Source of the DNA: Deltaproteobacteria bacterium
GTDB lineage: Bacteria; Desulfobacterota; DSM-4660; Desulfatiglandales; HGW-15
DNA: 46,737 bases
NCBI GenBank assembly: GCA_016931115.1
Contig: JAFGFM010000127.1
Coordinates: 1-46,737 of the forward strand
Direction: 5' to 3'
The number at the start of each line of letters is the position of its first letter. Position 1 is the first letter of the stretch. A program made the position numbers and the translations under genes. This document shows, piece after piece, positions 454 to 42,062 of this stretch. A model generated the notes under the pieces. That model made no database searches, had not been told where the DNA came from, and saw only the letters and a list, made by a program, of their open reading frames with translations.

Positions 454-969
454 ATGAAAATAAAGCAGCCGCAATATAATCCCACACTGAAAAGTGCTTT
501 TATCTTTATAACGCTATTAATTATAGTGTGCCTTTGTCTCTATCCTTTACCTGTAAGAGAAAAACTGATTAATCCATTTGTGAGGGTGATATGTGAACAA
601 GCATCATATCTCATAAATTTGTTTGGTACGGATGTTTTTTCACGCGACACAATTATTATAGGATCAGGTTTCAGCGTTGATGTAAAAGATGGTTGTAATG
701 CCGTTTATGAAATCAGTCTTTTTATTTGCGCTGTGCTGGCTTATCCATCCAGGCTTAAATATAAATTATTGGGAATAGCATGCGGATCTCTTATCATATA
801 TCTTTTTAACCTGATACGAATCGTTGTGCTGTATATGACAGGTAAGTATTATAATAATATTTTTAAAATGGTGCACGATCATGTTTCACAAAGTCTATTC
901 ATTTTTCTCGTGGTTGTTTTATGGCTACTTTGGGCTTCAGGAGCAAAAAAAAGTACCATTACAGATTAG
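454..969 (+). CDS. xrtH: Exosortase H-like transpeptidase (IPTL-CTERM sorting)
   Basis: A 171-residue integral membrane protein of the exosortase/archaeosortase family. These enzymes cleave C-terminal sorting signals at the outer face of the inner membrane. Catalytic-type residues are visible: Cys81 in DGCNAVYE, Arg122 in NLIRIVVL, and a His in HDHVSQ (His141 or His143). About four to five hydrophobic helices are present. The short length fits XrtH rather than the longer EpsH-type PEP-CTERM exosortases, and the upstream gene ends with an IPTL motif, XrtH's known target. AAAGG just upstream of ATG454 supports the start. The next gene overlaps its 3' end. It is not expected to process the VPIP-type PEP-CTERM proteins elsewhere in the window. 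Confidence 0.85.
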   Translation: MKIKQPQYNPTLKSAFIFITLLIIVCLCLYPLPVREKLINPFVRVICEQASYLINLFGTDVFSRDTIIIGSGFSVDVKDGCNAVYEISLFICAVLAYPSRLKYKLLGIACGSLIIYLFNLIRIVVLYMTGKYYNNIFKMVHDHVSQSLFIFLVVVLWLLWASGAKKSTITD

Positions 970-10835: not shown

Positions 10836-11495
10836 CTATTTATCACGCCTTCTTATACTAACTAATCCAAGCACCCCACTACCTAATAACCAAACCGCAG
10901 CAGGAATTGGTACTGGTGCCATCACTGAATTTGATCCTTCCTTAAAAATAGCCAGTTCTCCGTATTGTGCGTTGTAACTATCACCGTTGATATCTACAAG
11001 TTCGGTAAGATTATTTTGTGGTGTATAATAAAAACCTGCAAGATTTTCAAAATACCCATCCTGTAACGCTTCAAATGTAAAGGTGGCCATTAAGGTTTCG
11101 TTTGTATTTACAGGGAAAAATTGGTGCATATGGTCCAGATCAGTTTCACTGGACACATCATATAACCTGCCAGACTCTATATCATCAAAAACTGGTGGGA
11201 TACTAGAGTCACCCCATAATGTGTATTTTGATAAACCTCTCCCTCTTGTATAATCTGCCAGCTCATAATCAGTGGCTTCCAATAATGATGTATCCCACTG
11301 AATAGCAAAACTAAGCAAGTCCAGATAATCAGTCTTCTCACCTTCAAAATATACATTAATTGTGTATTCCTCTCCTTCTTCCAGAGTGCCATCTACATTA
11401 GTCATGGTTATTTGCCAAGCAAATGAAGGTAGTGAAAAGGTGAAAGTAAACAACAAAGATGTTAAAAATATAAAAACAAGCTTTTTTATTTTCAT
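10836..11495 (-). CDS. PEP-CTERM protein with cohesin-like domain
   Basis: 219 residues from the chosen start. ATG11495 (MKIKK) is preceded by AGAGGAGATAGA, a strong ribosome site; the upstream ATG at 11519 only adds eight residues covering that site. The signal peptide ends at SFA. A cohesin-like beta domain (about 25-175) contains SFAIQWDTSLLE and DVSSETDLDH. The C-terminus has VPIPAAVWLLG, a hydrophobic helix, and SIRRRDK: a full PEP-CTERM signal for exosortase-dependent sorting. It is paralogous to the N-terminal third of the 709-residue neighbour. The matching exosortase is elsewhere. Ligand unknown. Confidence 0.8.
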   Translation of the reverse strand: MKIKKLVFIFLTSLLFTFTFSLPSFAWQITMTNVDGTLEEGEEYTINVYFEGEKTDYLDLLSFAIQWDTSLLEATDYELADYTRGRGLSKYTLWGDSSIPPVFDDIESGRLYDVSSETDLDHMHQFFPVNTNETLMATFTFEALQDGYFENLAGFYYTPQNNLTELVDINGDSYNAQYGELAIFKEGSNSVMAPVPIPAAVWLLGSGVLGLVSIRRRDK

Positions 11496-11541
11496 TCTAT
11501 CTCCTCTTTCTTTATTCATTAGTCATTTCAATAGATGGGAC

Positions 11542-13065
11542 CTAATACCAAGGGCCCTGAGTCCCATATTTCTGCCTAAATGCAGAATTATCAGTTTTAT
11601 CAACATCCCCGTCAGCATCAAAATCACTCTGGGGTCCTGAAGTTCCGTATTGCGATCGGAACGTATTGAAATCGTTACGATCCACATCACCATCATTGTC
11701 ATAATCAGCATCAGTAACGTCACCATACCCATCCCCATCACTATCCTGCTGACTCGGGTTAGAAGTAAGATATGCATTATCTGCGGCATTGGGTATGCCG
11801 TCACCATCCAGATCATGGGTGGCATCAAGTGCGCTGCCCGGATAATAGATAGTAAGCCTTGGTGTGACACCTGGCATCCAGTAATCATAAGCAGAACCAG
11901 GGCTCCCGGCGCATCCCCCTGATTCATCACCGGATGGATTCCACATAACAGCAAGCCCGCGTCCCCACCTGTCTGCAAGTGCTCCGGTGGCAGAGTCATC
12001 CTGGCATGCATCAGGGGCAAAATACTTATATTCACTGTTATCAACCTTATTTCCATCGGTCGCCGGTGTAGTGCGTATTCCATCAGCAATCTGATCCACT
12101 ATCCCGGCCTTGATAAGGGCTGCATAGCCGTTTTCATCCGGCCCGCCAACCCCAAAGGCATCGCCTCCGCCAATATGCAGGTTGCCTTCGGCATCCTGGC
12201 CAATGTGGGCGCCGCTCAGTAGGTTCTGAGCAACAACGCGGGAGTTGGTATCATAATTAAGTGAATTCGGAGTTGCAGGGTCCCAGTCTGCTGCATCCCA
12301 TACCTTTATTTCGCCTGTACGATTTGGATATGTGTAATAACCGATGCCAACCAGCAGATCGCCATTCGCGGTTACCTCCACGTCAGCGCTTGCGCCCGGA
12401 TGCGGTGTTAAAAGCACCCCGGTGTGGTCCTCAGGATCAGCAGCCTGGGTATCTACTGAACCGACACCTGATTCAAAAACACAATCAGGATCATTGTGGT
12501 AAGGATAGGTGCATTCCGGTCCGGGCCATGCCCCGCCATCTATAACAAAGTAGCGGTTATCAGCCCAGTCGCCTTCATAGTAGTTCACATTTTCAAATTT
12601 TTTTACTGATGCATGTGTATCAAGCACCGGCGGACTGGCAGCGCTGAGCACGCTGGTCGGGATAATAAGCAGCGGTGCGCCATATCCTATTCCAAGCGCT
12701 ATCTTGCTTCCATCCGGTGAAACATGAATAAAACTCGGATCCATTGTGCCGGTTACAGTTCCCACCACATCAAACTGGCTTGAGCCATAGGTACGTTGTA
12801 AATAAATTTTATCATTATTAGCAGCGATAATCCGGCCTTTAGCCGCAAACTTGCCATCGAGCATCCCTGTTGTACTCTCAGGGAAATAATCCGCTGCCAC
12901 AAACCAGCCCCCCTCAACCGTGGGCAGGTCAATATCTGCCTCGTAACCGATCTCAGGGTCCTTGTAGTCAGCAAAATCATCTGCCAGTATGGGTATTGGT
13001 ATGGCAGTAAGGCTTAACAAGACCGCCGCCCCTGAAAGGAGTTTAATTATTTTGTTGTTTTTCAT
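11542..13065 (-). CDS. Secreted propeller-like protein with C-terminal dockerin/EF-hand repeats
   Basis: 507 residues with a signal peptide ending near residue 28 (ILA-DD). The central ~400 residues look like a beta-propeller, with blade-type segments such as FIHVSPDGSKIALG, DVEVTANGDLLVGIG and GQDAEGNLHIGGGD. The last ~95 residues carry calcium-loop motifs: DLDGDGIPN, DSDGDGYGD, then two dockerin-like pairs NDGDVDRND and DADGDVDKTD. There is no PEP-CTERM tail; a dockerin-like end could attach it to a cohesin-like neighbour such as 10836-11495, which is inference. GAGGT precedes the ATG. It lies at the distal end of the run that starts with the DUF4465 gene. Confidence 0.65.
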   Translation of the reverse strand: MKNNKIIKLLSGAAVLLSLTAIPIPILADDFADYKDPEIGYEADIDLPTVEGGWFVAADYFPESTTGMLDGKFAAKGRIIAANNDKIYLQRTYGSSQFDVVGTVTGTMDPSFIHVSPDGSKIALGIGYGAPLLIIPTSVLSAASPPVLDTHASVKKFENVNYYEGDWADNRYFVIDGGAWPGPECTYPYHNDPDCVFESGVGSVDTQAADPEDHTGVLLTPHPGASADVEVTANGDLLVGIGYYTYPNRTGEIKVWDAADWDPATPNSLNYDTNSRVVAQNLLSGAHIGQDAEGNLHIGGGDAFGVGGPDENGYAALIKAGIVDQIADGIRTTPATDGNKVDNSEYKYFAPDACQDDSATGALADRWGRGLAVMWNPSGDESGGCAGSPGSAYDYWMPGVTPRLTIYYPGSALDATHDLDGDGIPNAADNAYLTSNPSQQDSDGDGYGDVTDADYDNDGDVDRNDFNTFRSQYGTSGPQSDFDADGDVDKTDNSAFRQKYGTQGPWY

Positions 13066-13217: not shown

Positions 13218-14171
13218 CTAAAGGTTATTACGCCTCCTAATCCCTATAAGACACATTACCCCGGTTCCTAAAAGCCATATAGCTCCCGGTATTGGCACAG
13301 GGGCTACATCGGAAAAGGCGTCTATCTCACCGCCAGAATAGCCGCTGATGCCTTCCACCTTGATGTACTGAATCCAGTCCAGTTCAACCCCATAAAGAAG
13401 ATAAAGGTCATCCAGATCAAAGCCTGTTCCGCCTCCTGACCCCTGGTATGCCTCGATAGCATCAGCAGCAGAAACACCTGTCTGACCGAGCAACGCGCCA
13501 AAAACATCAGGATCGACCGGTTTGGTGAAATCCATCAAATTGGTTGTCCAGCCGTTTCCGGTTGCATCATATTGCGCCTGATCCCACTCATAGGCATGGG
13601 TAGGATATGCATTATCGCCATATGGTCCATTTGAATAGGCGTACCAGGTCCATTGCGATTGATCCTGACCTTCATATGCAGGTCCCTGGCTGACTGATAC
13701 GACTACGTTTTCAAAAAAACCCGCGCCATTAAATGAACTTCCTCCTGAAAGCATATATGTACTCATATTGGAGGCATCACTAACACTGCCACTACCAGTA
13801 TAAAATGCATTTCCAAAGACCAAAAAATCCAGGCCAAAGGGGTTGTTGGGGTCATTCATGACCTGGTGGTCAAAACCAGCCACGATATATTGCCCATTGT
13901 TAAGGGTTGTAATGAGCTTTGAACCATCCAGGCCGACGTTATAGGCCGGTTCCACCAGCTTTACATGGGCTGTTGCGGCGCTTCCCCATGTATTCTTGAA
14001 ATCTGTTGCTGGGGCACCGATTACAGCATTAGGGTCATTATAGAGGCTGCTGCCTGTTAATGTACTGGAATATGAAATAAGGTCTGTAGCATAAGGCGAC
14101 CCGAAAACCGTGGCAGACAAAGCTACAACCGCCATTCCAAATAAAAATGTTACTAATAAAAACTTTTTCAT
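13218..14171 (-). CDS. PEP-CTERM cell-surface protein (paralogue of 14955-16028)
   Basis: 317 residues. The signal peptide ends near VFG and AGGAG precedes the ATG. The body contains ISYSSTLTG, NDPNAVIGAP, a glycine-rich region with FGLDFLVFGNAF, and late FDLDDLYLLYG with YIKVEGISG. The same order of motifs (VVSYVP, GFDNAIYNGEGADF, FDLDDLL, YVRIVDIPG) occurs in 14955-16028, so the two are diverged paralogues, probably beta-sandwich surface domains. The C-terminus VPIPGAIWLLG, helix, IRRRNNL is a PEP-CTERM signal. Spacing to the upstream gene is 32 bases, consistent with one operon. I recall this type being called 'cell surface protein' in cobalamin-regulated loci, but cannot confirm it here. 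Confidence 0.75.
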   Translation of the reverse strand: MKKFLLVTFLFGMAVVALSATVFGSPYATDLISYSSTLTGSSLYNDPNAVIGAPATDFKNTWGSAATAHVKLVEPAYNVGLDGSKLITTLNNGQYIVAGFDHQVMNDPNNPFGLDFLVFGNAFYTGSGSVSDASNMSTYMLSGGSSFNGAGFFENVVVSVSQGPAYEGQDQSQWTWYAYSNGPYGDNAYPTHAYEWDQAQYDATGNGWTTNLMDFTKPVDPDVFGALLGQTGVSAADAIEAYQGSGGGTGFDLDDLYLLYGVELDWIQYIKVEGISGYSGGEIDAFSDVAPVPIPGAIWLLGTGVMCLIGIRRRNNL

Positions 14172-14203: not shown

Positions 14204-14848
14204 TTATTTTGAACGTTTACGTAATCCAATCAATCCAATAATCCCGCTGCCTAAAAGCCATAGAGCACCGGGGATGGGGACAGGGGCAGCAAAAGGAACG
14301 TCCAGGAAATAGGCGTTGGGGTCCCCATTGAACCATGTAATCGCATTTATGCCTTCAAGCTGACCATCTGCAAGCAACTCCTCATTATAACCGGCTCGAT
14401 TGGCGTACCAGTCCCCCAATGTTATCCAATCATCACTCATCGCACCCCACAGCGCAAAGGGATCGTTAGTACTACCGAGATTCCAGCTTCCCTCTTCGTC
14501 CGCGTGCGTATGGTTATCAACACCGTCGTTGTAGACGATGTCATAGATGAACGCCCCACCATAGCCGGAGGACAAGGTGAATACGCCCGCATCGTTTAAT
14601 GCATCGAGCATATCGGATTCGTAAGCTGTACCGTTCCAGCGGAAGCCAAATGCGTGCGATTCGGTTTGGTAGGGGCCTGAATAGATGTTCCAGTCCACGA
14701 CCAGAATTGTCTCGTTTTCTCCGCTGCCAGTCCAGGCATCCACCTCAATCCAGGCGCTGTTGCCACTTGCACCCGTGAAGTAATAGGGCGAGGCCTGAAC
14801 CATTGTGCCGATCAATAAAAAACAAATCACTAAAAATACTTTTTTCAT
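14204..14848 (-). CDS. PEP-CTERM protein of unknown family
   Basis: 214 residues. The signal peptide ends at VQA and AGGAG precedes the ATG. The mature part is a compact, Trp- and Gly-rich, probably beta domain with AWIEVDAWTGSGE, ETILVVDWN, SHAFGFRWNG and an HTHADEEGSW stretch whose His and acidic residues could bind a metal or ligand. The tail VPIPGALWLLG, helix, LRKRSK is a PEP-CTERM signal. I do not recognise the family. It lies between two paralogous PEP-CTERM proteins, 32 bases before one and about 106 bases after the other, where a palindromic element intervenes. Confidence 0.75.
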   Translation of the reverse strand: MKKVFLVICFLLIGTMVQASPYYFTGASGNSAWIEVDAWTGSGENETILVVDWNIYSGPYQTESHAFGFRWNGTAYESDMLDALNDAGVFTLSSGYGGAFIYDIVYNDGVDNHTHADEEGSWNLGSTNDPFALWGAMSDDWITLGDWYANRAGYNEELLADGQLEGINAITWFNGDPNAYFLDVPFAAPVPIPGALWLLGSGIIGLIGLRKRSK

Positions 14849-14878: not shown

Positions 14879-14967
14879 GGATCGGATCGTAGGGGCGCAG
14901 TGCCTGCGCCTGCAATCCGACATTATTCCAAACATCAATTAGAGGAAAGTCGGATTAATAACCCGAC
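14879..14967. repeat. Dispersed GC-rich palindromic element, copy B, plus adjacent palindrome
   Basis: 14879-14930 repeats the element at 8543-8588 (TCGTAGGGGCGCAGTGCCTG, then GCAATCCGACATTATTCC). A second palindrome GTCGG...CCGAC (14949-14967) overlaps the stop codon of the 14955-16028 gene. Together they fill the space within the PEP-CTERM operon and could cause partial termination or protect mRNA ends. Confidence 0.65.
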
Positions 14968-16028
14968 CTACCTGACTTTCTTCGACGAATACCCAGAAGA
15001 CCTATTATCCCTGAACCTAAAAGCCAGATAGCTCCAGGGATTGGTACGGCATTGATAACGCCAAGCGCCTCAAAGTCCAGACCACCTGAACCCCATGTAA
15101 CCCATGCATCATAAATTGGATTACCATCAGCATCTGTCAATGTACCATTACCCGGGATATCAACGATTCTGACATAGTTAATTTCATTAAGGTCGACAGC
15201 ACCTGATAAAACCAGCGGATCATTCAGAAGATCATCAAGGTCAAAGGGAGTTCCCCAACTTGCGCTATAGGCATTTGCATGCTTTCCCACCAGGTTGTAT
15301 ATATTGCTGACATCCTGGGTAAGATAATTTGTGCTGACCATGGTTCCTGTTCCATTAAGATCTATCCGATTGTCTACCATTCCATTCGTGGTGGCATTTG
15401 GGTAATTCAGATAGTCGCTGGGAAAGCGTGCAAAGTCAGTCCCATTTGTTGACACATCCACAAAACCGAGTTCTGCAAACATCTGACCTGCAACACTGCC
15501 TGCACCTGTGCTGTAATTTGAAACAAAGCCGTTTTCAAAGGCCGCAAAATCGGCACCTTCACCATTGTATATTGCATTGTCAAAACCAAGGGTGAGTATG
15601 CCGGGGCCGGTGATTCCGCCAGGCGGGTTAATGCCCAGGTTGTTCGTCCAACTGTTGATCTCGGCCATATTCATATCGCCAAGGGTGACGATGTTCATAT
15701 TGTTGCCGGTTACAGGACCTAAAGCGAGCGCCGGATTTGCGAACTGAGTACCTATACCGTTCTGGCCATAGGCGCCAGTATTATCAGAAGGCACATAGCT
15801 CACAACTTCTGTTGCCCATCCAACAAAAATCGGGTTAACATAGTTGCCGTTAGTATCTGTAGCTGCTACTCCCTCGCCAGCAGGGCCTAAAAACCCTGCA
15901 ATCCCTGCATCAATAAAACCTACTTCATCAGCGCCTCCTTTGCCTGGTGAATATGGCCCTGCAAATGAACTGCTGTATGTTAACAAGGTAAAAACTAAAA
16001 AAACACTAAACAAAAATCTCTTTTTCAT
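14955..16028 (-). CDS. PEP-CTERM cell-surface protein (paralogue of 13218-14171)
   Basis: 357 residues from ATG16028 (MKKRFLF), with GGAG upstream; a TTG two codons earlier is less likely. The signal peptide ends near SFA. The body holds ATEVVSYVPS, a glycine/asparagine-rich segment, ILTLGFDNAIYNGEGADF followed by AAFENGF, FAELGFVDVSTNG, FDLDDLLN and YVRIVDIPGNG. This reads as a regular beta-sandwich with an F/Y-V-x-V-S-x-N-G strand typical of carbohydrate- or ligand-binding surface proteins. The tail VPIPGAIWLLG, helix, IRRRKSGRSGY is a PEP-CTERM signal. It starts 18 bases after the DUF4465 gene, certainly the same transcript, so it is under the riboswitch leader at 16.9-17.9 kb. Confidence 0.78.
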   Translation of the reverse strand: MKKRFLFSVFLVFTLLTYSSSFAGPYSPGKGGADEVGFIDAGIAGFLGPAGEGVAATDTNGNYVNPIFVGWATEVVSYVPSDNTGAYGQNGIGTQFANPALALGPVTGNNMNIVTLGDMNMAEINSWTNNLGINPPGGITGPGILTLGFDNAIYNGEGADFAAFENGFVSNYSTGAGSVAGQMFAELGFVDVSTNGTDFARFPSDYLNYPNATTNGMVDNRIDLNGTGTMVSTNYLTQDVSNIYNLVGKHANAYSASWGTPFDLDDLLNDPLVLSGAVDLNEINYVRIVDIPGNGTLTDADGNPIYDAWVTWGSGGLDFEALGVINAVPIPGAIWLLGSGIIGLLGIRRRKSGRSGY

Positions 16029-16046
16029 AATCAATAATTCTCCTTT

Positions 16047-16901
16047 TTAAACTTTCGATCTTTTTCTCCCAATCCCGATAAACCCCAGAAGACCGGAACC
16101 CAAAAGCAGGAGAGACGGGGGTATTGGAACCGGATTTACATCCAGATTATCCATTACAAAATAGGCTGGGGTGTTTATGCCCCAGGTTCCTGTATCTGAT
16201 GAGGTGAGGTCGAACTCAAGGCCGTATACCAGTCCAAGACTGGTCAAATCTACCCATGTCCAGTCAGTGATGATATAGTCACCCTCTGAATTTTCAGAGC
16301 GGTAATCCGCCAGGTAAAAATCAACAGAATTGCCGGTGCGGGCATATTCACTATCAAGACCATAAACAGTCAGCTTGAACCAGTCAGGGTCAGTACCGGT
16401 AGCGCCGCCAAATTTTTTTGCATAGGAATCACCTTCCATCATGGAATGATATGCATATGCATTGTTGGTGAAATAGGCGCCATTTACAACCTGGGCATAT
16501 TCACCAGACACAACCCCGTTGTAAGTCTGAGGATACCATCCCATCCAGGAACCGACACAGCTTACCCCATAGTTAGCTGAACCATTTACACCACCGCCTG
16601 CACCATTATTGCTGTATGCAACAAACTGTCCGTTAACCCCTGAAAGTGAGGTATTGGTCTGATTGGAATAGGCAAAATCCACCCAGAAATCATACTCATC
16701 CTCTTTAAAATTGGTAAAAGCTACGTCTCCGCTGGTAAATGAACCATGCGTACCAAAGTCATCTTCTCCTGATGTATCAACACCATTCCAGTATGACTCT
16801 GATGCAAGAGTCAAATCATCAAAAGTTGACACAGAAGCGCTTGCTGACGAGGCTATAGCCAATAACCCCGTTAAAATTAATAATAAAAACATTTTTTTCA
16901 T
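16047..16901 (-). CDS. PEP-CTERM protein with DUF4465 domain, headed by the multi-riboswitch leader
   Basis: 284 residues. AAAGGAGAGATAA precedes the ATG and the signal peptide ends near ASA. Residues ~24-255 match DUF4465 as I know it: an FDDL start with ESYWNGVDTSG, FTSGDVAFTN, an S-(V/G)-W-x-G-(F/W) core, FYLADYRSEN, and WTWVDLTSLG with YGLEFDLTSSDTG. The tail VPIPPSLLLLG, helix, IGRKRSKV is a PEP-CTERM signal. DUF4465 genes recur, to my knowledge, in cobalamin-riboswitch loci of Bacteroidetes, where several surface lipoproteins bind B12; here the protein is PEP-CTERM-sorted instead. The 5' leader holds two cobalamin riboswitches and a GEMM riboswitch with terminator. B12 binding is inference from context. 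Confidence 0.8.
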   Translation of the reverse strand: MKKMFLLLILTGLLAIASSASASVSTFDDLTLASESYWNGVDTSGEDDFGTHGSFTSGDVAFTNFKEDEYDFWVDFAYSNQTNTSLSGVNGQFVAYSNNGAGGGVNGSANYGVSCVGSWMGWYPQTYNGVVSGEYAQVVNGAYFTNNAYAYHSMMEGDSYAKKFGGATGTDPDWFKLTVYGLDSEYARTGNSVDFYLADYRSENSEGDYIITDWTWVDLTSLGLVYGLEFDLTSSDTGTWGINTPAYFVMDNLDVNPVPIPPSLLLLGSGLLGFIGIGRKRSKV

Positions 16902-16929
16902 TTATCTCTCCTTTTGGTTAAAAATTAAT

Positions 16930-16964
16930 AAAAAAGCCGGATCACCTATCAAAGGCAACCCGGC
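16930..16964 (-). terminator. Terminator overlapping the 3' strand of the GEMM aptamer
   Basis: On the minus strand GCCGGGUUGCCU pairs with AGGUGAUCCGGC and is followed by six U. Its 5' arm is the 3' closing strand of the GEMM aptamer, so aptamer folding and termination are mutually exclusive. Ligand binding is therefore predicted to switch expression on. It ends 29 bases before the DUF4465 start. Confidence 0.8.
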
Positions 16965-17082
16965 TATCCAATCTGTTTTTGAGCCTTGAGCTTTGAGCTT
17001 TGAGCTTTGAGCTTTCAGCCTTGAGCTTCTTCTTTGGATCCGCGGCTTTCCGGCCCCCGGTTACCCGGGGTGTGGCTTTTTC
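16950..17082 (-). promoter_or_regulatory. GEMM / c-di-GMP-I class riboswitch with expanded P3 loop
   Basis: Minus-strand order: AAGCC-ACACC, a stem CCCCGG-GUAA-CCGGGG capped by a GNRA tetraloop, GCCGGAAAGCCGCGGAUCC, a long loop, then GGAUAGCCGGGUUGCC. This matches the GEMM-I layout (AAACC, GNRA-capped P2, GCAAAGCC, P3, AGCCGGGUUACC). P3 (AUCC/GGAU) encloses about 60 extra bases, mostly AGCUCAA heptamers. The base aligned to Vc2 G20 appears to be A here, the change found in cGAMP-sensing GEMM-Ib; that alignment is by hand. It lies downstream of two cobalamin aptamers and upstream of a terminator. Confidence 0.75.
16976..17032. repeat. TTGAGCT heptamer array inside riboswitch loop
   Basis: About seven units of a 7-base repeat (TTGAGCT with variants TTGAGCC and TTCAGCC). 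The same heptamer occurs at 23404-23434. The array lies entirely in the P3 loop of the GEMM aptamer. The unit length is not that of a CRISPR repeat and there are no spacers. Confidence 0.85.
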
Positions 17083-17091
17083 TTTTTAATA

Positions 17092-17185
17092 GACTCTAAA
17101 GAGGGGCGGCAAGGAGGGTAATATCCGTTAAAAATGAAGCGTCAGAGTAAATAATTCTTCATTCGCACCCCACCCCTCGATAGAG
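17092..17185 (-). promoter_or_regulatory. Expression-platform hairpin after cobalamin riboswitch 1
   Basis: On the minus strand CUCUAUCGAGGGGUGG pairs over about 60 bases with CCGCCCCUCUUUAGAG. Nested inside is UGAAG...CUUCAUUUUU, a small hairpin with a U-run. The same nested structure follows riboswitch 2 at 17611-17703, so it is conserved and probably functional as a terminator/antiterminator switch. Confidence 0.6.
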
Positions 17186-17201
17186 TCCCACAGCTTCATA
17201 T

Positions 17202-17364
17202 GGCAGTTGAGGTCTCCTGGCTCTCCCGGCCCTGGCCGCCTTCCCATAATGTCCGTGTCATTACAGTGGCATGTTGATCAGGGCTATGATTCCTTTTACT
17301 GGAATCAGGATTACAGTTGCGGGGCAGCAGCGGCTTTTCACCGCTTTCCCTTCCTCTGCCTGTG
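17202..17364 (-). promoter_or_regulatory. Cobalamin (B12) riboswitch 1
   Basis: The minus strand reads AGGCAGAGGAAGGGAAAGCG, GGUGAAAAGCCGCUGCUGCC, CCGCAACUGUAAUCC, AUGCCACUGUAAUG, GGGAAGGC, and closes with the B12 box GAGAGCCAGGAGACCU. All conserved cobalamin-aptamer boxes are present in order. It is the second of two aptamers in series and is followed by a GEMM riboswitch and the DUF4465 gene. Confidence 0.93.
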
Positions 17365-17610
17365 CTGTTCGTTGAAAATATAATTAATGAAAATCCTGAA
17401 TAATTACTTGGTATATTTTGCTGTTCTTTTCAATAAGATTGCGAATCAGCGGAAATATATTTAAGGGAAACAGGTTGTAGAATTAATTAAAAAAGTTTAT
17501 TGCAAGATTCTTTTCATGGATATTTCTTTTCAGGAGATGCCAATGTAATACCGATAGAGCTTTTGCTTTTCAGCTCAGGTTATACAAAATGTATATTTAA
17601 TTTTTTAAAA
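17365..17610. other. Spacer between the two riboswitch modules; possible remnant start
   Basis: There is no gene here; the plus-strand frame 17500-17715 is a shadow of the regulatory RNA. On the minus strand an ATG opens MKRILQ followed by a stop (about 17516-17496). It resembles the beginning of a signal peptide like those of the adjacent genes, so it may be a relic of a lost gene between the duplicated modules, or chance. Confidence 0.35.
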
Positions 17611-17703
17611 GACTCTATAAAGGGGTGGAAGGGGGAGGCTTCTCAGGCAAAAATGAAGGAACCAGGCAAAAATACTTCATTCGCACCCCACCCCTCGATA
17701 GAG
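17611..17703 (-). promoter_or_regulatory. Expression-platform hairpin after cobalamin riboswitch 2
   Basis: The minus strand has CUCUAUCGAGGGGUGG...CCACCCCUUUAUAGAG followed by UCUUUU, with an inner AUGAAG...CUUCAUUUUU. It is homologous to 17092-17185 with compensating differences in the outer stem, and here the outer hairpin is closer to a standard terminator. Confidence 0.65.
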
Positions 17704-17719
17704 CTTTGCAATTAAATTC

Positions 17720-17887
17720 GGCAGATAAGGTCTCCTGGCTCTCCCGATTCCGGTCACCTTCCCATAACCCATGTCTAGTTACAGTGGTATATTGATCGGA
17801 ACACTGATTTCATATATTGAAATCAGGATCACAGTTGCGGGGCAGCAGCGGATTTACACCGCTTTCCCTCCATCTACCTATGCTTAC
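17720..17887 (-). promoter_or_regulatory. Cobalamin (B12) riboswitch 2
   Basis: The minus strand shows GGGAAAGCGGUGUAAAUCCG, CCCCGCAACUGUGAUCC, UACCACUGUAACU, GGGAAGGUGACC, and GAGAGCCAGGAGACCUUAUC. It is a complete cobalamin aptamer, the first of the series leading to the DUF4465 operon. It begins about 83 bases after the CRP/AraC gene stops, so it can be reached from its own promoter or by read-through. Confidence 0.92.
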
Positions 17888-17970
17888 ATCAGCAGATAAT
17901 AAAAGAGCTTCAGGAATTTTGCTTGTTTTATTTTGCTTTTTAATAAGATAAATTTGCTTTAATAAAAAGA

Positions 17971-18801
17971 TTAACCCGATTGTTGTTTTATTTTTACCTG
18001 GGATACATGCTGAAAGGACTTTTTATAATGTGAAGGTGTAACACCTTCCAGTTTCAGGAAAACCCTGCTGAAATATGAGAGGTCATTGAAGCCAACAGCA
18101 AAGGCAGCCTCGGTAACATTCATGTCATTATTTTCCATAAGATATTTTGCTCTTTGGACACGTTTGACATTAATATAATCCTTTAACGAGGCCCCTGTTT
18201 TGGTTTTGAAGATTCTTGAAAAATGGTACCTGCTCATTGCGTTTGCCTGGGCTATCTCATCTAGGCTAAGAGGATTCATGAAGTTTTTTTCAATATATAT
18301 GAGCGCCTTTTTTATAGTACGGGGGAAAAAATCAGATTCATCCTTATTATCTATATTTTTTTTTGAGAAAGATAATGAGTTATTTACCTTTTCAAAGGCC
18401 CTCATGAAACTGGCAATAGCTGATTTATAAAAATATTCCTTTACATGCGGATAGCTATTGAGAATACCAATAAAATCTTTTCTGGAAAGCCGATAGCCTT
18501 GAACATGTGTCCTGCTGTACATGTTCACAATGGATAATTTTCCGACCATCAATGAACCGCTTCCAAAAAAATCTCCTTTAGTTAAACAACCGCACTCAAT
18601 CAAATCATTGTTGGCCGCCATCAATACAGTCAGTTTACCGGAGCTTATAATGCCAACTTCCTTTACAAGATCACCTTCTTTAATGACCTGCTGCCCCTCT
18701 TTGTAATTAAAGGGGAAAAACCTCTGGCAAATGGCATCCATTTCCTTCTCGGATATATTTTTAAAAACAGGTATATCGGCCAGTAATTCTCTAACATCCA
18801 T
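17971..18801 (-). CDS. CRP-like (cNMP-fold) / AraC-type transcriptional regulator
   Basis: 276 residues from ATG18801 (MDVRELL); the 14 residues before it in the open frame are the riboswitch terminator hairpin read as protein. Residues ~5-115 are a cyclic-nucleotide-binding-fold domain (IPVFKNISEKEMDAI, EGDLVKEVGIISSGKL, KGDFFGSGSL). The usual phosphate-cassette Glu and Arg are not visible, so it may not bind cAMP. Residues ~165-265 are an AraC DNA-binding domain with two helix-turn-helices (LSLDEIAQANAMSRYHFSRI and VTEAAFAVGFNDLSYFSRVF). It is expressed behind cobalamin riboswitch 3 and ends next to riboswitch 2, so it likely regulates the neighbouring B12-linked genes. Confidence 0.85.
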   Translation of the reverse strand: MDVRELLADIPVFKNISEKEMDAICQRFFPFNYKEGQQVIKEGDLVKEVGIISSGKLTVLMAANNDLIECGCLTKGDFFGSGSLMVGKLSIVNMYSRTHVQGYRLSRKDFIGILNSYPHVKEYFYKSAIASFMRAFEKVNNSLSFSKKNIDNKDESDFFPRTIKKALIYIEKNFMNPLSLDEIAQANAMSRYHFSRIFKTKTGASLKDYINVKRVQRAKYLMENNDMNVTEAAFAVGFNDLSYFSRVFLKLEGVTPSHYKKSFQHVSQVKIKQQSG

Positions 18802-18836
18802 AAAAAACCCCTTTATGCCGCAGGCACAAGGGGTGT
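18802..18836 (-). terminator. Hairpin of riboswitch 3 that also covers the ribosome site of the regulator gene
   Basis: On the minus strand ACCCCUUGUGCC pairs with GGCAUAAAGGGGU and is followed by six U, directly touching ATG18801. The AAGGGG of the 3' arm is the best ribosome-binding sequence for that ATG, so the hairpin could stop transcription, hide the ribosome site, or both. Confidence 0.75.
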
Positions 18837-18893
18837 TATCCATATACCAACCTGGAAAACCTGTACCTCGCAGGCATCCAAACTAACTATCAT

Positions 18894-19050
18894 GGCAGGT
18901 CTCCTGGCTTGTGAATCATCCTAATAGCCATCTCCTTCCCATCCCGTAATAGGCGGAACAGTGGATATTTTGGCTTTCGTCCTCACTTACAGTGGCGGGT
19001 CCGCAACGGCTTTACACCGTTTTCCCTATAAAGCCCATGTAGGGCACCAG
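18894..19050 (-). promoter_or_regulatory. Cobalamin (B12) riboswitch 3, upstream of the CRP/AraC regulator
   Basis: The minus strand has GGGAAAACGGUGUAAAGCCG, GACCCGCCACUGUAAGUG, UAUCCACUGUUCCGCC, GGGAAGGAGAUGG, and AAGCCAGGAGACCUGCC. These are the cobalamin aptamer boxes in order. It is not part of the 17.1-17.9 kb duplication; peripheral stems differ clearly. It controls the regulator through the hairpin at 18802-18836. Confidence 0.9.
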
Positions 19051-19319
19051 AATAGTTTTTAGAATTCTCTTCTTGTTTAATCTTCTTTAAAAAAAACCGC
19101 AATATATTAATAATTAATATTACAATAGACGAACTATAGCTTGCGTTAAATTGCTATTCTTTTTAACTTTCTTGCGCATGTAAAGGTATTAACTAAATGG
19201 TATAAATTTTGATTGCAGCTAATAAACTAATTTTATTATGATCGGACATGCTGTGATTTATTGACTATATGAGTAGGTTAAATTATACTCTTAATAAAGC
19301 AACTTAAGAAAGGATTTTA
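19051..19319. other. AT-rich intergenic region upstream of riboswitch 3
   Basis: About 270 bases between the response regulator stop and riboswitch 3. I see no gene. A promoter for the riboswitch 3 transcript should lie here on the minus strand (very AT-rich around 19090-19130), but I cannot assign -35 and -10 boxes with confidence. Confidence 0.4.
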
Positions 19320-20782: not shown

Positions 20783-22447
20783 TTAGAACCTTGCATTCAG
20801 GTCAATAAAAAATTTATCAATGGCTATAGGTACAGATCTAACCTCATCACTGCTTATCCAGCGGATCGAAAGCCACAACCTCTCTGACAAGCCGAACTGT
20901 GATTGCAGTATCCACCCTTTTGCATTAGCCCCGCTCAGGTGAAAATCTGAGTCGGTAAATGCGTCAAAAACAGCATCCCCTTCAACATACCTGTATGTCA
21001 GGGAGGTATTCCATTCTGCAAAACCCATAGGCTTGGGATATCCATATAGCAAACCTATCTGATAACCCTCTATCTCCTCAGGATAGGATGTGAGATTCAT
21101 CATTCTTGCTACATCCTTCGCGTCAAACCCAATATTTTTCACATAATCTGTTTTTAGGATTATGTGTTTAGGGAACCAGTAGTCATAATCCAGTTCGGTA
21201 GATATATTTAAAAGCCTGTATTCCCCTGCAAGGGCATAGGTCTCATTGTTAGGATCAGTATTGATATCTATCATCGCGTTTCCTATCTGCCTGAAGAGCG
21301 GTTCAGTACCAAAGGAGACACTTCCTGACGGGTCATTAAAAAACTCCCCCCTGGTTCTTTTATAGTTATAATATGAGATTGCAGTGGTTGCGCTTAAACT
21401 CATTGATTTTTCATACTTAATCACAAACTGCCCTGCAAAAAGCCATTTATCCTTTTCATAGAGTTCAAGCTCCTGAAGGGGAAAGGCTCCCATGGTAAGA
21501 AAAAATTTAAGGGGATTAGCAAGGAGTGTATCACTCTCCAGTTTCACTGCAAGACCCTCAAAATTAACATCACTGTCCCATACCATATCAGTGGAGTAAA
21601 AGGGGTTAGCAAATCTTCCTCCCCATGCTGTCACCTGCGGGAACCTTCCGAATTTTGGGTAGTCAGGTTTGTATGTCCATTTCAAATAGGCATTATCCAG
21701 AACAATGCTGTCCTTGTTTAAATAATCACCAAGGGTATCGTTTGTTGATACCGGGTCATTTGTGCTTCCCGTTGCTATCCTTGCCCCTGCATCAACCTTT
21801 CCCACATTCATATCAGGGTTTTTCTTCATGATCTCCGCGTTTGCCTCAAGCCTTACCCTGTACCTGTAACGCGCTCTGTCAACTGTAGTATTTACTATCT
21901 CATTTTTTTCCGGGTCATATAACTGGTCGTAATTCTCTTCATCATAAAAATTCTTCTCATATCTGAGCCGTATATCTCCACCCCACCTCATCCGATTTGC
22001 CCATGAGACCTGATTGAGTTTATTACCCACATCTTCAACCAGTTTTTTATCTATAGCATCTGCCCTTTTTTCAAGGAGCCTTGACCTGGTCATAAGCTCA
22101 TCAGACATATAATCAAGATCCTCTTTTGTCTTGACAACATCTTCCTTGAGCGCCTTGTTTACATCTTCGGTTATTCTTTCAATATATTCCTGACCCTCCT
22201 GTTCAGGGATAATGGTAACAACTGTGCCCTTTTCCCTTTTTGCAGGTATGCCACTTTTGTATCTCTTTATAAATTTATCAGCCTCTTCGTCACCAATAAC
22301 CCCTTTTGACTTTAGCAGATCAATAAGCGCCTCAATGGTGTCCTCCATTGGCGGTTCTGCCTTTGTTTCATCTGCAAACAATACCGGTGAAGTAAGCACA
22401 CCCATTACCAGTATGAATACTGATATTCTTTTTAATATCTTTCCCAT
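20783..22447 (-). CDS. Putative outer-membrane porin (Porin_5-like)
   Basis: 554 residues from ATG22447 (MGKILKR), which gives a proper signal peptide ending at FA-DE; the longer frame adds 35 unlikely residues. A short helical region (about 25-140, with KSKGVIGDEEADKF and coiled-coil-like segments) precedes a beta-barrel. Typical pieces are MRWGGDIRLRYEKNF, ARYRYRVRLEANAEI, VDAGARIATGS, LDNAYLKWTY and WGGRFANPF, ending in FFIDLNARF with a C-terminal Phe as in outer-membrane proteins. This matches the putative porin family that frequently sits next to TonB/ExbBD. It probably passes an unknown substrate; TonB may energise something else in the same envelope complex. Confidence 0.8.
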   Translation of the reverse strand: MGKILKRISVFILVMGVLTSPVLFADETKAEPPMEDTIEALIDLLKSKGVIGDEEADKFIKRYKSGIPAKREKGTVVTIIPEQEGQEYIERITEDVNKALKEDVVKTKEDLDYMSDELMTRSRLLEKRADAIDKKLVEDVGNKLNQVSWANRMRWGGDIRLRYEKNFYDEENYDQLYDPEKNEIVNTTVDRARYRYRVRLEANAEIMKKNPDMNVGKVDAGARIATGSTNDPVSTNDTLGDYLNKDSIVLDNAYLKWTYKPDYPKFGRFPQVTAWGGRFANPFYSTDMVWDSDVNFEGLAVKLESDTLLANPLKFFLTMGAFPLQELELYEKDKWLFAGQFVIKYEKSMSLSATTAISYYNYKRTRGEFFNDPSGSVSFGTEPLFRQIGNAMIDINTDPNNETYALAGEYRLLNISTELDYDYWFPKHIILKTDYVKNIGFDAKDVARMMNLTSYPEEIEGYQIGLLYGYPKPMGFAEWNTSLTYRYVEGDAVFDAFTDSDFHLSGANAKGWILQSQFGLSERLWLSIRWISSDEVRSVPIAIDKFFIDLNARF

Positions 22448-22490
22448 TATCTGAAATCTCCACATCTCATTTATCATTTTCTTATATCTT

Positions 22491-23186
22491 TTATCCCTTG
22501 GATGAAACCCTGAGCTTGATAGCCTTTGGCATATCAAATGGCGGGGGGTCATCTGCCTTTATATTTTTTACTGCTAAACTTATAGCCTTATCCATATTCT
22601 GATTACCTGAAGAGCCCACAATCTGGAAGGTTACAATTTCTCCGGCATCACCGATAACAATTCGTACAGTTGCATCATGGTCTCCTTCAGGGATACCGCC
22701 GTTCTTCTCAAGCTCTTTTTGAAGCCTCTCCTGTATCAGCCCCTGAAGCATCTGTGTGTACCATGAATATTTTTTTAAAAGGCTCTCATTACCAAAACCA
22801 CCTCCGATAAGAGACTTCCCCCCCTTTTTTGATACAAGACCAAAACCGTCAGAACCAGCAACTCCATCAGCATCAACACCTAAATCGCTCCCGGCCTCCT
22901 GATCTGAACCATCATCCGGCATCTCTTCATGTGTCTCTTCAATCGCCTGCTCAATAACCTCTTCCTTTTCCTTCAGCTCAGGTTCAGGGGGTATCTCTTC
23001 AACCTTGGGTGGCGGAGGAGGATTTAACAGGGTCACCATCTGCACCTGTCTCTTCATTTTGGCTGCATCTTCAGATACGAGTGCCTTTACGATGAAAAAA
23101 CAGGCAGTCATAAGCATCAGGGAAACAACAATGGAAAATATTATTATTTTTTTCTGCGTAGAATTCTTTTTTTTGCTTTTTTCCAT
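22491..23186 (-). CDS. tonB: TonB-family energy transducer
   Basis: 231 residues. It has an N-terminal membrane helix (about 13-35), a Pro-rich PPPPPKVEEIPPEPE and acidic linker, then a Gly-rich segment. The C-terminal TonB domain (about 135-231) contains YTQMLQGLIQERLQKELEK, ATVRIVIGDAGEIVTFQIVG, DKAISLAVKN and MPKAIKLRV. TonB proteins pass proton-motive energy from ExbBD to outer-membrane receptors. It is followed by the porin gene 43 bases downstream and preceded by ExbB/ExbD genes across a repeat-rich 262-base gap. Confidence 0.9.
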   Translation of the reverse strand: MEKSKKKNSTQKKIIIFSIVVSLMLMTACFFIVKALVSEDAAKMKRQVQMVTLLNPPPPPKVEEIPPEPELKEKEEVIEQAIEETHEEMPDDGSDQEAGSDLGVDADGVAGSDGFGLVSKKGGKSLIGGGFGNESLLKKYSWYTQMLQGLIQERLQKELEKNGGIPEGDHDATVRIVIGDAGEIVTFQIVGSSGNQNMDKAISLAVKNIKADDPPPFDMPKAIKLRVSSKG

Positions 23187-23448
23187 ATCTCATCCATTAT
23201 ATTTTTTTTCGAGTTGAAGGGCACGATGCGTCTTGCCCCTACTGTCTCCCTTGGGCACAATGCGCTGTGCTCCTTCTGTCTTCCCTGTCCGCCATAGCAT
23301 TGTCGAAGGAGTCTACCTTCTGGGCGAAATATTTTTCGCCCCTACGATTCTCCTGTCTTCTGACTCCTGACTTCTGTCTTCTGCTTTCTTTCTTCTGTCC
23401 AAGCTTACAGCTTTGAGCCTTGAGCTTTGAGCTTTTTTAACCTTTCCC
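23187..23448. repeat. Intergenic repeat cluster between exbD and tonB
   Basis: There is no gene. The region contains two GC-rich palindromes of the GGGCAC...GCCCCTAC type (23219-23242 and about 23251-23273), a GGGCGAAATATTTTTCGCCC palindrome followed by CTAC (about 23331-23346), a pyrimidine-rich CTGACTTCTGTCTTCTG-type stretch (23353-23400), and TTGAGCT heptamers (23404-23434). All have relatives elsewhere in the window (6624-6648, 8543, 14879, 16976, 35773). Confidence 0.75.
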
Positions 23449-23856
23449 TCACTTCACCAGCTTCTGGGTAACAAGGCCCAGTTGTGTAATCTCAAGCCGC
23501 TGCAGAAGATCAAGCACATTGATCACACTCTCATAATAAACCTTCCCATCACCCTTTATAACTACAGGCAGGGCAGGGTCTGCCGCCTTGTACTGCCTTA
23601 AATAGGTTTCAAGCTCCGCAAGGGTAACAGGATAGGTATCAAGAAATATCTGCCCATCGGCCAGTATTGATATGGCCTTTGTCCTTGGTTTTGTAAGGCT
23701 CTGCGCCGCGCTTGCCTGGGGCATATTTACCTTTATGCCCTGTATGGCCGCTGTAATTGAGATGATAAAAACCACAAGCAGGGTCCATGCAAGGTCAAGC
23801 AGAGGCGTTACGTTTATCTCATCAAGTATCCTGTTTTCGGTTTTACGCCTTCTCAT
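23449..23856 (-). CDS. exbD: ExbD/TolR biopolymer transport protein
   Basis: 135 residues with one membrane helix near the N-terminus. It carries the conserved INVTPLLDLAWTLLVVFII, with the functional Asp in PLLDLAW, and a C-terminal periplasmic domain with ILADGQIFLD and KGDGKVYYESVINVLD. It forms the proton-conducting stator with ExbB and drives TonB. The start codon overlaps the ExbB fusion stop in ATGA, so the two are translationally coupled. Confidence 0.92.
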   Translation of the reverse strand: MRRRKTENRILDEINVTPLLDLAWTLLVVFIISITAAIQGIKVNMPQASAAQSLTKPRTKAISILADGQIFLDTYPVTLAELETYLRQYKAADPALPVVIKGDGKVYYESVINVLDLLQRLEITQLGLVTQKLVK

Positions 23857-25634
23857 TTATTTTCCCCGAATTTTTCTTCAATTTTCAGCATAAACTGCTC
23901 AACAAATATATCCATATCCGCAATGATGCCTTTGATCTTGATTGCCAGAAAGTTGTACCCAAACAGCGCGGGTATGGCCACGATAAGGCCAAATACTGTT
24001 GTTGCCAGGGCTGAGGCAACGCCTGGCGCGATAGCTGCAAGATTTGCCTCCCCTGCTTCTGCAAGGGCTGCAAAGGTATTCATAACGCCCCATACAGTTC
24101 CTAAAAGCCCCAGAAAGGGGCCGCCTGATATGGACATAGTCAGGATCGTAAGCATTGAATTGATCCTGAGATCTTCCCTTACAAAACCTTCATCAATATA
24201 GGTCCTTATTGTGTTTATCTCATGTTTAGTCAGCTTTTTTCCACCGGAGGATATTTTATCAAGAAGGTGGTTAAGGCGGTTACATCCTGCATTATACAAC
24301 TTACAGATGGATGAATTTTCAAAATTATCCTTCTCTATATTATTATGGAGGACATCATAATTATTCAGAAAGGATTCCCAGAACAATTTGTTTTCTTTTT
24401 GTATGAATACAAGCTGAAATGCTTTATTCATGATGATAAACCAGCTACCAATAGCAAAGAATACTAAAACAATTATTATAATCCAGCCATCGAGCGAGAT
24501 GTTTTTTACGATGGTCGCAAAGTAAAAAACCGGCATCCCTCGCCCTTTGTTAATCTCTTCACCCTCTACTACAAGAAATTTTGGATCAGGCCCCTCTGTC
24601 ATGTGTGCAAGGCCTATGTATGAAATTGTTCTTGATCCCTTTGATACCCTGATTTCATCAAGGTCACCCAGAAATGGTTTTGACCTGTCTATAGAATTTC
24701 CGACCACCATATTGCTGTTTATTTGAGGCATTGAGAATTTCATATCCGCCCATGTGGACTCTATGCCGTCAAGAGTTATTGTTATCCTGCTATTTGGCAT
24801 AACTGTAACAAAAAGGTGCTGCCATTTCATGGAGGCGATAGCTGTTGTCTTTTCAGTTGATACAATAACGCCGGTATCGGACTTTACACTGCAATAGATC
24901 ATGGAGTTCTCAATGCCTATTAACACCTCGCCGCTGCTTCCCGACATTGTAAAGAGGTGGGCTTCACTTACCGCGTCAGTCATTCTTACCCAGGCGGAAA
25001 ATGTGAGCCCGGCATTAAAGTCCATAGATGGAGAATTGTTTATCACTATTCCATCCTCAATGCTTGCAATCGTAGCCCCTGTGCCTATTATTGACGGCAA
25101 CCCAAGCCCGCCCTTGAATTCTACGGCATTGTTTTTATAGGCAGTAGCATCCTTTGGGAGACCTTCCACCTCATCCATATGCATAACAAGCACCTGGTCA
25201 ACCGCATAGGTGCCGTTCATGTCCTGCCCTCCCACCGCGCTCTCATTGCCATAATACATCCATATATATTCAGTCGCGGTCTTTGCGGATACCCTGGGTA
25301 GCCTCACCCACAGAAGCGCGATTTCATCTACAGGATCAAACCTTTCTATATGATGCTTGAGAAGATTTTGGCCGTCACTTGAAATTAAACGAATATCAGT
25401 GCCGTCATCCTTTGCGTTCGCAAAATTAAAATTTCCTGAATGGAGCCTTAATAAAACCGGAAAGTCATCGATGTTCTCACTGATATCAGCGCCGGAGGGC
25501 GTCGTATCAAAGGATATCTTCTGCCTGTACTGCCATGATTCATTCCACCATTCAGGGGCCTCTCCTGATGCTGCGAATGGGATAAACAACAATAATGAAA
25601 TTATAAAAAAAGCCCGAGTAATAATATTCTTCAC
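23853..25634 (-). CDS. DUF2341-LamG-ExbB fusion: proton channel with large extracytoplasmic domain
   Basis: 593 residues starting with GTG25634, with AAGGAG seven bases upstream. After the signal peptide (ending near ASG), residues ~25-120 form a DUF2341 domain (WWNESWQYRQKISF, YIWMYYGNE) and ~150-350 a LamG/concanavalin-like domain (HMDEVEGLPKDATAYKNNAV, LTFSAWVRM, LGDLDEIRVSKGSRT). The C-terminal half is MotA/TolQ/ExbB: a membrane helix at ~385-405, a cytoplasmic loop, then helices with MLTILTMSISGGPFLGLLGT, VWGVMNTF, and APGVASALATTVFGLIVAIP. So an ExbB is fused to lectin-like domains facing the periplasm. It directly follows the exoprotein gene (22 bases). I have seen this architecture named before, but its role is unknown. 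Confidence 0.85.
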   Translation of the reverse strand: MKNIITRAFFIISLLLFIPFAASGEAPEWWNESWQYRQKISFDTTPSGADISENIDDFPVLLRLHSGNFNFANAKDDGTDIRLISSDGQNLLKHHIERFDPVDEIALLWVRLPRVSAKTATEYIWMYYGNESAVGGQDMNGTYAVDQVLVMHMDEVEGLPKDATAYKNNAVEFKGGLGLPSIIGTGATIASIEDGIVINNSPSMDFNAGLTFSAWVRMTDAVSEAHLFTMSGSSGEVLIGIENSMIYCSVKSDTGVIVSTEKTTAIASMKWQHLFVTVMPNSRITITLDGIESTWADMKFSMPQINSNMVVGNSIDRSKPFLGDLDEIRVSKGSRTISYIGLAHMTEGPDPKFLVVEGEEINKGRGMPVFYFATIVKNISLDGWIIIIVLVFFAIGSWFIIMNKAFQLVFIQKENKLFWESFLNNYDVLHNNIEKDNFENSSICKLYNAGCNRLNHLLDKISSGGKKLTKHEINTIRTYIDEGFVREDLRINSMLTILTMSISGGPFLGLLGTVWGVMNTFAALAEAGEANLAAIAPGVASALATTVFGLIVAIPALFGYNFLAIKIKGIIADMDIFVEQFMLKIEEKFGENK

Positions 25635-41932: not shown

Positions 41933-41983
41933 TGTTATTCCCTCCAAAAAAATAATAAATATTATTAATCTTCTTTTTTCCTC

Positions 41984-42062
41984 AGGCAGCCCGGCCATCT
42001 GATTATTCAGACCCGCAGCTTTCCGCCACCCGGTCACCCGGGGTTTGGCCTTTTCTGGAGGC
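41984..42062 (-). promoter_or_regulatory. GEMM / c-di-GMP-I class riboswitch, compact form
   Basis: The minus strand reads AGAAAAGGCCAAACC, then CCGG-GUGA-CCGG (GNRA-capped P2), GUGGCGGAAAGCUGCGGG, a short P3 UCUGA/UCAGA, and AUGGCCGGGCUGCC. All GEMM-I landmarks are present in order. The base aligned to Vc2 G20 appears to be G, as in c-di-GMP-sensing members. The expression platform is unclear: the AT-rich hairpin before the ribosome site (AATAATA/TATTATT) is a candidate. Confidence 0.78.

Follow-up and report, generated by a model that had tools for sequence, protein, structure and literature searches.

Two cobalamin aptamers and a c-di-GMP-I aptamer in series before a PEP-CTERM-like operon that encodes relatives of B12-binding proteins

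Why would a bacterium line up three riboswitch aptamers of two classes in front of a single operon? The question is raised by contig JAFGFM010000127.1 of a Deltaproteobacteria bacterium (assembly GCA_016931115.1, Desulfobacterota), of which we analysed a stretch of 46,737 nt, called the window below. Its minus strand carries two cobalamin aptamers and then an aptamer of the cyclic di-GMP class I (c-di-GMP-I, also GEMM), followed by an operon that begins with a DUF4465 gene. We think it likely that this operon encodes PEP-CTERM-type surface proteins that capture B12, and that it is governed by one leader RNA in which two OFF switches for cobalamin are followed by an ON switch for c-di-GMP.

We ran Rfam cmscan over the whole window. 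Before the DUF4465 operon it calls, 5' to 3' on the minus strand, cobalamin, cobalamin and c-di-GMP-I, all above the gathering score, which bears out a preliminary description of the stretch that had proposed three aptamers in series. Copy 1 of the cobalamin aptamer lies at 17710-17905 (RF00174, 70.8 bits, E 1.4e-15, gathering 31.5), copy 2 has its Rfam core at 17210-17351 (RF00174, 70.4 bits, gathering 31.5), and the GEMM aptamer is at 16951-17086 (RF01051, 55.8 bits, E 2.4e-8, gathering 35). The description had ended the chain at 17887, but copy 1 extends 18 nt further, to 17905. It had also taken both cobalamin aptamers to be complete; both are called, but Rfam aligns only the core of copy 2 (model positions 45-169 of 189, with the first 44 and last 20 left unaligned), and we read this copy as the core plus a short closing helix, about 17202-17360.

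Two riboswitch classes thus stand in series before one open reading frame (ORF) with no gene between them. The only ATG-started minus-strand ORFs of at least 25 aa between the upstream regulator gene and the DUF4465 gene encode 31 aa and 39 aa. With 9 cobalamin and 7 c-di-GMP-I matches in the 5.18 Mb of the genome (240 contigs, 98.5% complete), our own arithmetic gives an expectation of about 0.003 c-di-GMP-I starts within 500 nt downstream of a cobalamin match on the same strand, so the adjacency is unlikely to be due to chance.

A contender that we take seriously, while leaning away from it, is that the chain is split between two transcription units. Copy 1 would then damp read-through from the regulator gene in response to B12, and a promoter in the AT-rich gap at 17370-17600 would start an RNA that carries only copy 2 and the GEMM aptamer, so that the gate becomes an ordinary two-input one. 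Copy 1 starts only 65 nt past the regulator stop, the gap of 359 nt between the two cobalamin cores holds one weak minus-strand promoter match (17454-17481), and the relatives have a single cobalamin aptamer before GEMM, all of which is consistent with two units. However, promoter-like matches (10, against 6.5 +/- 2.7 in shuffles) are not clearly above expectation, and on RNA that started upstream both copies would still act in series.

The last switch of the chain has the clearest output. An intrinsic terminator with a 13-pair stem and a U-run follows at 16930-16965 on the minus strand, and the aptamer's 3' strand serves as its 5' arm, so by fold and terminator call the two structures are mutually exclusive. 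Because the terminator uses the aptamer's own 3' strand, ligand binding should prevent termination and turn expression ON. This had been predicted from the overlap, and the overlap is borne out and common to most of the relatives compared. The terminator reuses the aptamer 3' strand in 10 of the 12 leaders that we folded, the present one included (9 of the 11 others). These are a leader on contig C240 of the same genome, those of AUK045, B119, Anaeroferrophillacea, G350 and UBA2771, and three of genome G291, which we took as Desulfobacca acetoxidans. Among the 12, no such terminator was found at 41981 in the window or at an extra G291 copy (L195 4581).

G20, A47 and C92, the ligand-contact letters of c-di-GMP-I aptamers, are all present in this GEMM aptamer according to the Rfam alignment. 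After the folding we aligned ten of the 12 leaders, those that share the overlapping terminator (41981 in the window and L195 4581 in G291 were left out), and only the third G291 copy among them has A at position 20. A at this position is what the literature gives for the cGAMP variant in D. acetoxidans. The letters point to c-di-GMP rather than cGAMP as ligand here, and given G at position 20 we rejected cGAMP as the likely one. The earlier proposal of two inputs, B12 and a cyclic dinucleotide, is therefore supported, with the dinucleotide narrowed towards c-di-GMP. One GEMM loop is enlarged by an array of a 7-nt tandem repeat (16978-17028, 7.3 copies, found by TRF). We also note two further aptamers of this class in the genome. 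The one at 41981-42058 on the minus strand of the window precedes a PEP-CTERM-like gene and lacks an aptamer-overlapping terminator; its Rfam name c-di-GMP-I-GGC, also given to matches in L068 and L189, is one that we did not accept, as we read the letter at position 47 as A. The other (L060 4504-4661 and 1918-2457) has a very long loop and stands before two secreted-looking proteins, beside a group II intron.

Are both cobalamin copies still RNA elements? The two modules, each an aptamer with the hairpin after it, align over 290 nt with 77% identity. We wrote the reference structure by hand from copy 1, so the pairing percentages lean towards that copy; all 34 named pairs are paired in copy 1 and 32 in copy 2, and 7 of the 34 are altered on both sides yet still paired. 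In register 97.1% of cells are paired, compared with 25-49% when the partner is slid by 1-3 columns, and 4 of 500 shuffles reach the observed two-copy values. With four relatives added, six modules of the same type show 15 pairs with changes on both sides and 92.6% pairing (31-54% when slid); none of 500 shuffles reaches four of the measures and 15 of 500 reach the fifth, although the shuffles ignore relatedness. We left the B119 module (L130) out of this count, as its variable region was misaligned. The core letters are intact in both copies of the window, and since seven pairs exchanged both of their bases without losing the pairing, both have probably been retained as RNA. Given the Rfam scores and the compensated pairs, we rejected chance cobalamin matches, or one real copy only, as explanations.

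We consider it rather unlikely that one of the copies is decaying after the duplication and regulates nothing, leaving one cobalamin switch and the GEMM to matter. Two points favour this reading. In 80 named DUF4465 loci, the best of 556 relatives, a pair of cobalamin matches no more than 900 nt apart never occurs (0 of 80; searched with a cobalamin model of our own, for which this window supplied three of the 14 sequences), and copy 2 lacks two outer P1 pairs. The seven two-sided pair changes and the intact core letters argue otherwise, as do 29 nt of the G-rich hairpin arm that are identical in the two copies. The doubling itself looks local to the present genome. Outside the 80 loci, genome G002 has two partial cobalamin matches 155 nt apart, of which Rfam calls one. 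Between the modules of the window, the sequence at 17551-17566 (minus strand) resembles the start of the hairpin 5' arm and is perhaps a duplication scar.

By our reading both copies belong to an aptamer subtype that lacks P2, a hairpin that is usual but not defining: Rfam leaves P2 unaligned in copy 1, and copy 2 is aligned only at model positions 45-169. Each copy is followed on the minus strand by a long hairpin with a CGAGGG box at its foot. After copy 1 the hairpin spans 17611-17705 (box 17692-17697; the fold of 17610-17705 has -36.8 kcal/mol), with no clear U-tract, and after copy 2 it spans 17092-17189 (box 17174-17179; the fold of 17085-17190 has -40.3 kcal/mol), without a U-tract. In all seven modules of this type (7/7), the box lies 27-31 nt after the last ACCT of the aptamer. 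By eye, the G-rich arm can pair with CCCCGC of the aptamer. The only minus-strand terminator-like site called in 16850-17900 is the one after GEMM; the region 16850-19300 has 3 such sites in all, and shuffles have 2.6. The opposite arm is rich in C, which suggested to us a site for Rho: the excess of C over G in the best 60 nt of the modules is 13-19, against a mean of -2.5 (sd 5.6) in same-strand windows. However, that window was chosen by its maximum, a G-rich 5' arm yields a C-rich 3' arm regardless, and the window of copy 2 extends into GEMM, so we offer Rho loading as a hypothesis only.

What does the chain control? The first gene of the operon, at 16047-16901 (all operon genes are on the minus strand), encodes a DUF4465 protein with a PEP-CTERM-like tail (PF14717, 169 bits against a cut-off of 25). 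It is related to PDB entry 9hmu (DUF4465 protein D5EK; E 1.8e-21), and by this kinship is likely to bind B12 as a BtuJ-like protein. B12 binding by eight DUF4465 members and a structure of D5EK51 with B12 have been reported (PMC13398666; papers given by PMC number are cited here for parts of their text). The second product (14955-16034), also with a PEP-CTERM-like tail, appears BtuH-like in its structure model, which has a mean pLDDT of 78. The sole Foldseek match at E <=0.001 is BtuG1 (8blw chain B, E 5.4e-5, query TM 0.31). The model superposes on BtuH2 (7biz) with Z 11.3 over 167 residues at 3.4 A and on the H domain of BtuG1 (8blw) with Z 11.0, and other folds reach at most 8.8. As a single sequence it had no relatives in the PDB (best E 0.24), and its family often accompanies DUF4465 (61 tblastn matches in the loci searched). 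A second BtuH-like protein with such a tail is encoded at 13218-14171; a profile of four sequences without Bacteroidota matches BtuH2 (7biz) at E 5.2e-11, or 3.9e-42 with Bacteroidota rows included, and the two BtuH-like families align with each other (hhalign probability 98.9%). BtuH binds B12 via its C-terminal domain (PMC8941943), and BtuG1 carries a copy of that domain (PMC10404256). Judged by sequence profiles and structure models, three products of the operon are related to B12-binding families, one DUF4465 and two BtuH-like. The target that had been described simply as surface proteins is thus not a generic one.

The other products are less telling. A secreted protein with a PEP-CTERM-like tail (14204-14848) is 50% identical to a G291 protein and has no sequence relatives in the PDB (best E 0.023). 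A secreted protein of 507 aa (11542-13065) is 62-64% identical to a G291 protein; besides the present genome, G291 alone among 297 genomes has a full-length homologue, and a structure predicted from the two sequences has a mean pLDDT of 37.6. At the 3' end of the cluster is a VPLPA/PEP-CTERM surface protein (10836-11519; TIGR03370, 30.8 bits, above cut-off), and neither this gene nor 8593-10722 has tblastn homologues in the loci searched. The tails of the operon products resemble PEP-CTERM signals, with the models below cut-off except for TIGR03370 at 10836-11519. The genome has five Exosortase_EpsH matches above cut-off, and a partial exosortase match lies in the window at 517-933 (plus strand).

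That the operon serves another purpose, such as conductive pili or matrix structure, with B12 sensed as a proxy of metabolic state, seems improbable: conductive pili have been suggested for the orthologous D. acetoxidans locus (PMC9481103), several operon members have no B12 kinship, and the c-di-GMP aptamer at 41981-42058 precedes another PEP-CTERM-like gene, but the present operon combines a DUF4465 with two BtuH-like proteins, the related operon of G002 includes a TonB-dependent receptor, and in planctomycetes DUF4465 and a BtuH-like protein share one reading frame.

With three products akin to B12-binding families, the simplest reading of the cobalamin input is feedback repression by the captured nutrient. 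The proposed gate would work as follows. When cobalamin is plentiful, either cobalamin copy would fold with it and halt expression. With little cobalamin and much c-di-GMP, as in sessile or biofilm cells, RNA polymerase would pass both copies, the GEMM aptamer bound to c-di-GMP would keep its 3' strand, the terminator could not form, and the B12-binding proteins would be made. The logic would be NOT cobalamin AND c-di-GMP, and the doubling of the NOT term should make repression steeper. B12 traps would then probably be made only by cells that are short of B12 and live in a biofilm. The presence and order of the aptamers, the conservation of both cobalamin copies, the overlap of GEMM aptamer and terminator, and the kinship of the proteins with B12 binders are supported by the sequence; from these we infer a single transcript, the identity of the ligands, the OFF direction of the cobalamin switches and the surface or matrix location of the products.

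B12 may also act one level further up. The gene upstream of the chain (17971-18843, minus strand) encodes a CRP-like/AraC regulator (cNMP_binding, HTH_18, HTH_AraC), and because it has a cobalamin aptamer of its own in its leader (18877-19066, RF00174, 115.6 bits), B12 would act at two levels, on this regulator and on the operon leader. The aptamer is followed by an intrinsic terminator with a CCCC...GGGG stem and six U at 18802-18833; the site was called at 18813-18829 and we read the full stem from the sequence. The ORF start at 18843 precedes this terminator, so the ATG at 18801, just past it, is more likely to be the true start. A CRP/AraC-like gene comes before the chain in the window, AUK045, Anaeroferrophillacea and B119, and has a cobalamin match of its own in each of them, a partial one in the case of B119. 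Upstream of the regulator, at 20783-25634 on the minus strand, there are Porin_5, TonB_2 and MotA/ExbB-type genes.

How widespread is the arrangement? By our cobalamin model, 64 of the 80 named loci have a match on the strand of the DUF4465 gene and no more than 2 kb upstream of it, and 80 of the 81 cobalamin matches in these loci are on the strand of the gene. We found the order cobalamin, then c-di-GMP-I before DUF4465 in four other genomes: AUK045 (L072/L068), B119_G9 (L130), Anaeroferrophillacea (L121/L187) and G350 (L189), where 354 nt separate the two aptamers. The cobalamin aptamers at these loci are of two subtypes. Among 395 genomes of the phylum, three of the eight with DUF4465 (G000, G350, G354) have a GEMM; the locus in G037 is cut by a contig end. 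UBA2771 has the reversed order, c-di-GMP-I then cobalamin, before DUF4465 (L075 1937-2437). G002 has, in order, a cobalamin aptamer, an AraC-type gene, a cobalamin aptamer, a BtuH-like gene, DUF4465 and a TonB-dependent receptor; the stretch searched has no GEMM. The distribution of DUF4465 is patchy, with 5 of 99 close relatives having it, and at several planctomycete loci (e.g. L088 2613-4367) it shares one reading frame with a BtuH-like protein. At L052 8467-8941, two cobalamin aptamers face away from each other on the two strands, and by our reading of the ORFs each precedes a TonB-dependent-receptor-like gene.

G291 has three cobalamin/c-di-GMP clusters, as published for D. acetoxidans (L195 4581-16985). 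Downstream of them are proteins 62%, 58% and 50% identical to the products of 11542, 13218 and 14204, along with homologues of 6645 and 7648; BtuH-like genes are included. By eye, the cobalamin aptamers of G291 and G350 are of the other subtype with ordinary terminators after them, so the pairing of cobalamin and c-di-GMP may have arisen more than once. Putting this together, we offer tentatively a broader reading, in which Desulfobacterota have repeatedly placed a cobalamin and a c-di-GMP riboswitch one after the other (with standard AdoCbl aptamers, with P2-lacking CGAGGG ones, and in reversed order) before PEP-CTERM-type B12 binders, so that B12 would be captured in the matrix only when it is scarce and cells are sessile. 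In the P2-lacking type the expression platform would be a new one: the CGAGGG box would close a hairpin, and Rho would load on its C-rich arm when that arm is exposed but not when it is hidden, in place of an intrinsic terminator. Whatever its mechanism, this brings a recurrent cobalamin-switch platform without a U-tract to notice.

Several observations weigh against a B12-capture operon under a three-switch gate, in addition to the weak promoter match in the gap. On the RNA side, the cobalamin hairpins were not called as intrinsic terminators. On the protein side, the family profile of 14955-16034 has BtuG1 as its only match, a weak one (E 0.0077), no PDB entry is hit by the single sequence of 13218-14171, and the products of 14204-14848 and 11542-13065 have no assigned function. 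Contigs C143 and C50 carry ORFs that we read as cobalamin-synthesis genes, so the genome is not that of a plain auxotroph. In the window no gene for a TonB-dependent receptor was seen next to the operon, though one follows DUF4465 in G002 and, as read from the ORF, in G044. Among relatives, only 4 of the 80 named loci have a GEMM, and in 16 of the 80 a cobalamin match within 2 kb is missing; 8 of these have at most 800 nt of locus before the gene, 6 others have a match farther upstream, and 2 have none. DUF4465 was not found in the one genome of the same genus that was searched (G001). Finally, in Methylophaga nitratireducenticrescens GP59, one of four c-di-GMP riboswitches before CTERM genes is reported to be higher in planktonic cells (PMC12530212).

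Parts of this arrangement are known from elsewhere. GP59 resembles it in having c-di-GMP riboswitches before PEP-CTERM genes, the substrates of exosortase, and 10 of its 11 riboswitches are reported with higher transcript levels in biofilm; unlike here, the two cobalamin riboswitches of that strain are reported with genes for cobalamin synthesis, not in series with the c-di-GMP ones (PMC12530212). The BtuG, BtuH and BtuJ lipoproteins of Bacteroides are likewise surface proteins of the DUF4465 and BtuH families under cobalamin riboswitches (PMC8941943, PMC10404256, PMC13398666), whereas the proteins here have PEP-CTERM-like tails in place of lipoprotein anchors and an additional control by c-di-GMP. 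We found no link of DUF4465 to c-di-GMP in the passages of open-access papers that we read. AdoCbl doublets, of which 26 are reported (PMC9481103), also put two cobalamin riboswitches in series, with a steeper response expected, but here a third and different switch follows.

The closest system is that of D. acetoxidans, where cobalamin and c-di-GMP-I riboswitches in series were described as a predicted NOT A AND B gate, with two AdoCbl/c-di-GMP-I pairs, one AdoCbl/cGAMP pair and conductive pili suggested as the target (PMC9481103); these pairs agree with the three clusters in G291. The preliminary description had known of no cobalamin-cobalamin-GEMM chain. In the same passages, where cobalamin/c-di-GMP pairs turn up in PMC9481103 alone, we did not find the doubled chain either, but the cobalamin/c-di-GMP-I series was already published; what is new is the proposed target, B12 capture. 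With this the published puzzle of why D. acetoxidans couples B12 and c-di-GMP sensing gains a testable answer, and with relatives of B12-binding surface proteins among the genes there is no need to appeal to pili. One leader RNA would tie the scavenging of a vitamin to biofilm signals, and it would be a natural chain of three switches whose two duplicate copies both seem to have been conserved as RNA. Both systems place cobalamin before c-di-GMP-I with an overlapping terminator, ahead of orthologues of part of this operon. They differ in that D. acetoxidans has a standard AdoCbl aptamer with an intrinsic terminator, an extra upstream GEMM, and no DUF4465 seen among the ORFs read in the G291 stretch, while the present genome has two cobalamin copies of the P2-lacking subtype with CGAGGG hairpins, no extra upstream GEMM, and a DUF4465 gene directly behind the chain.

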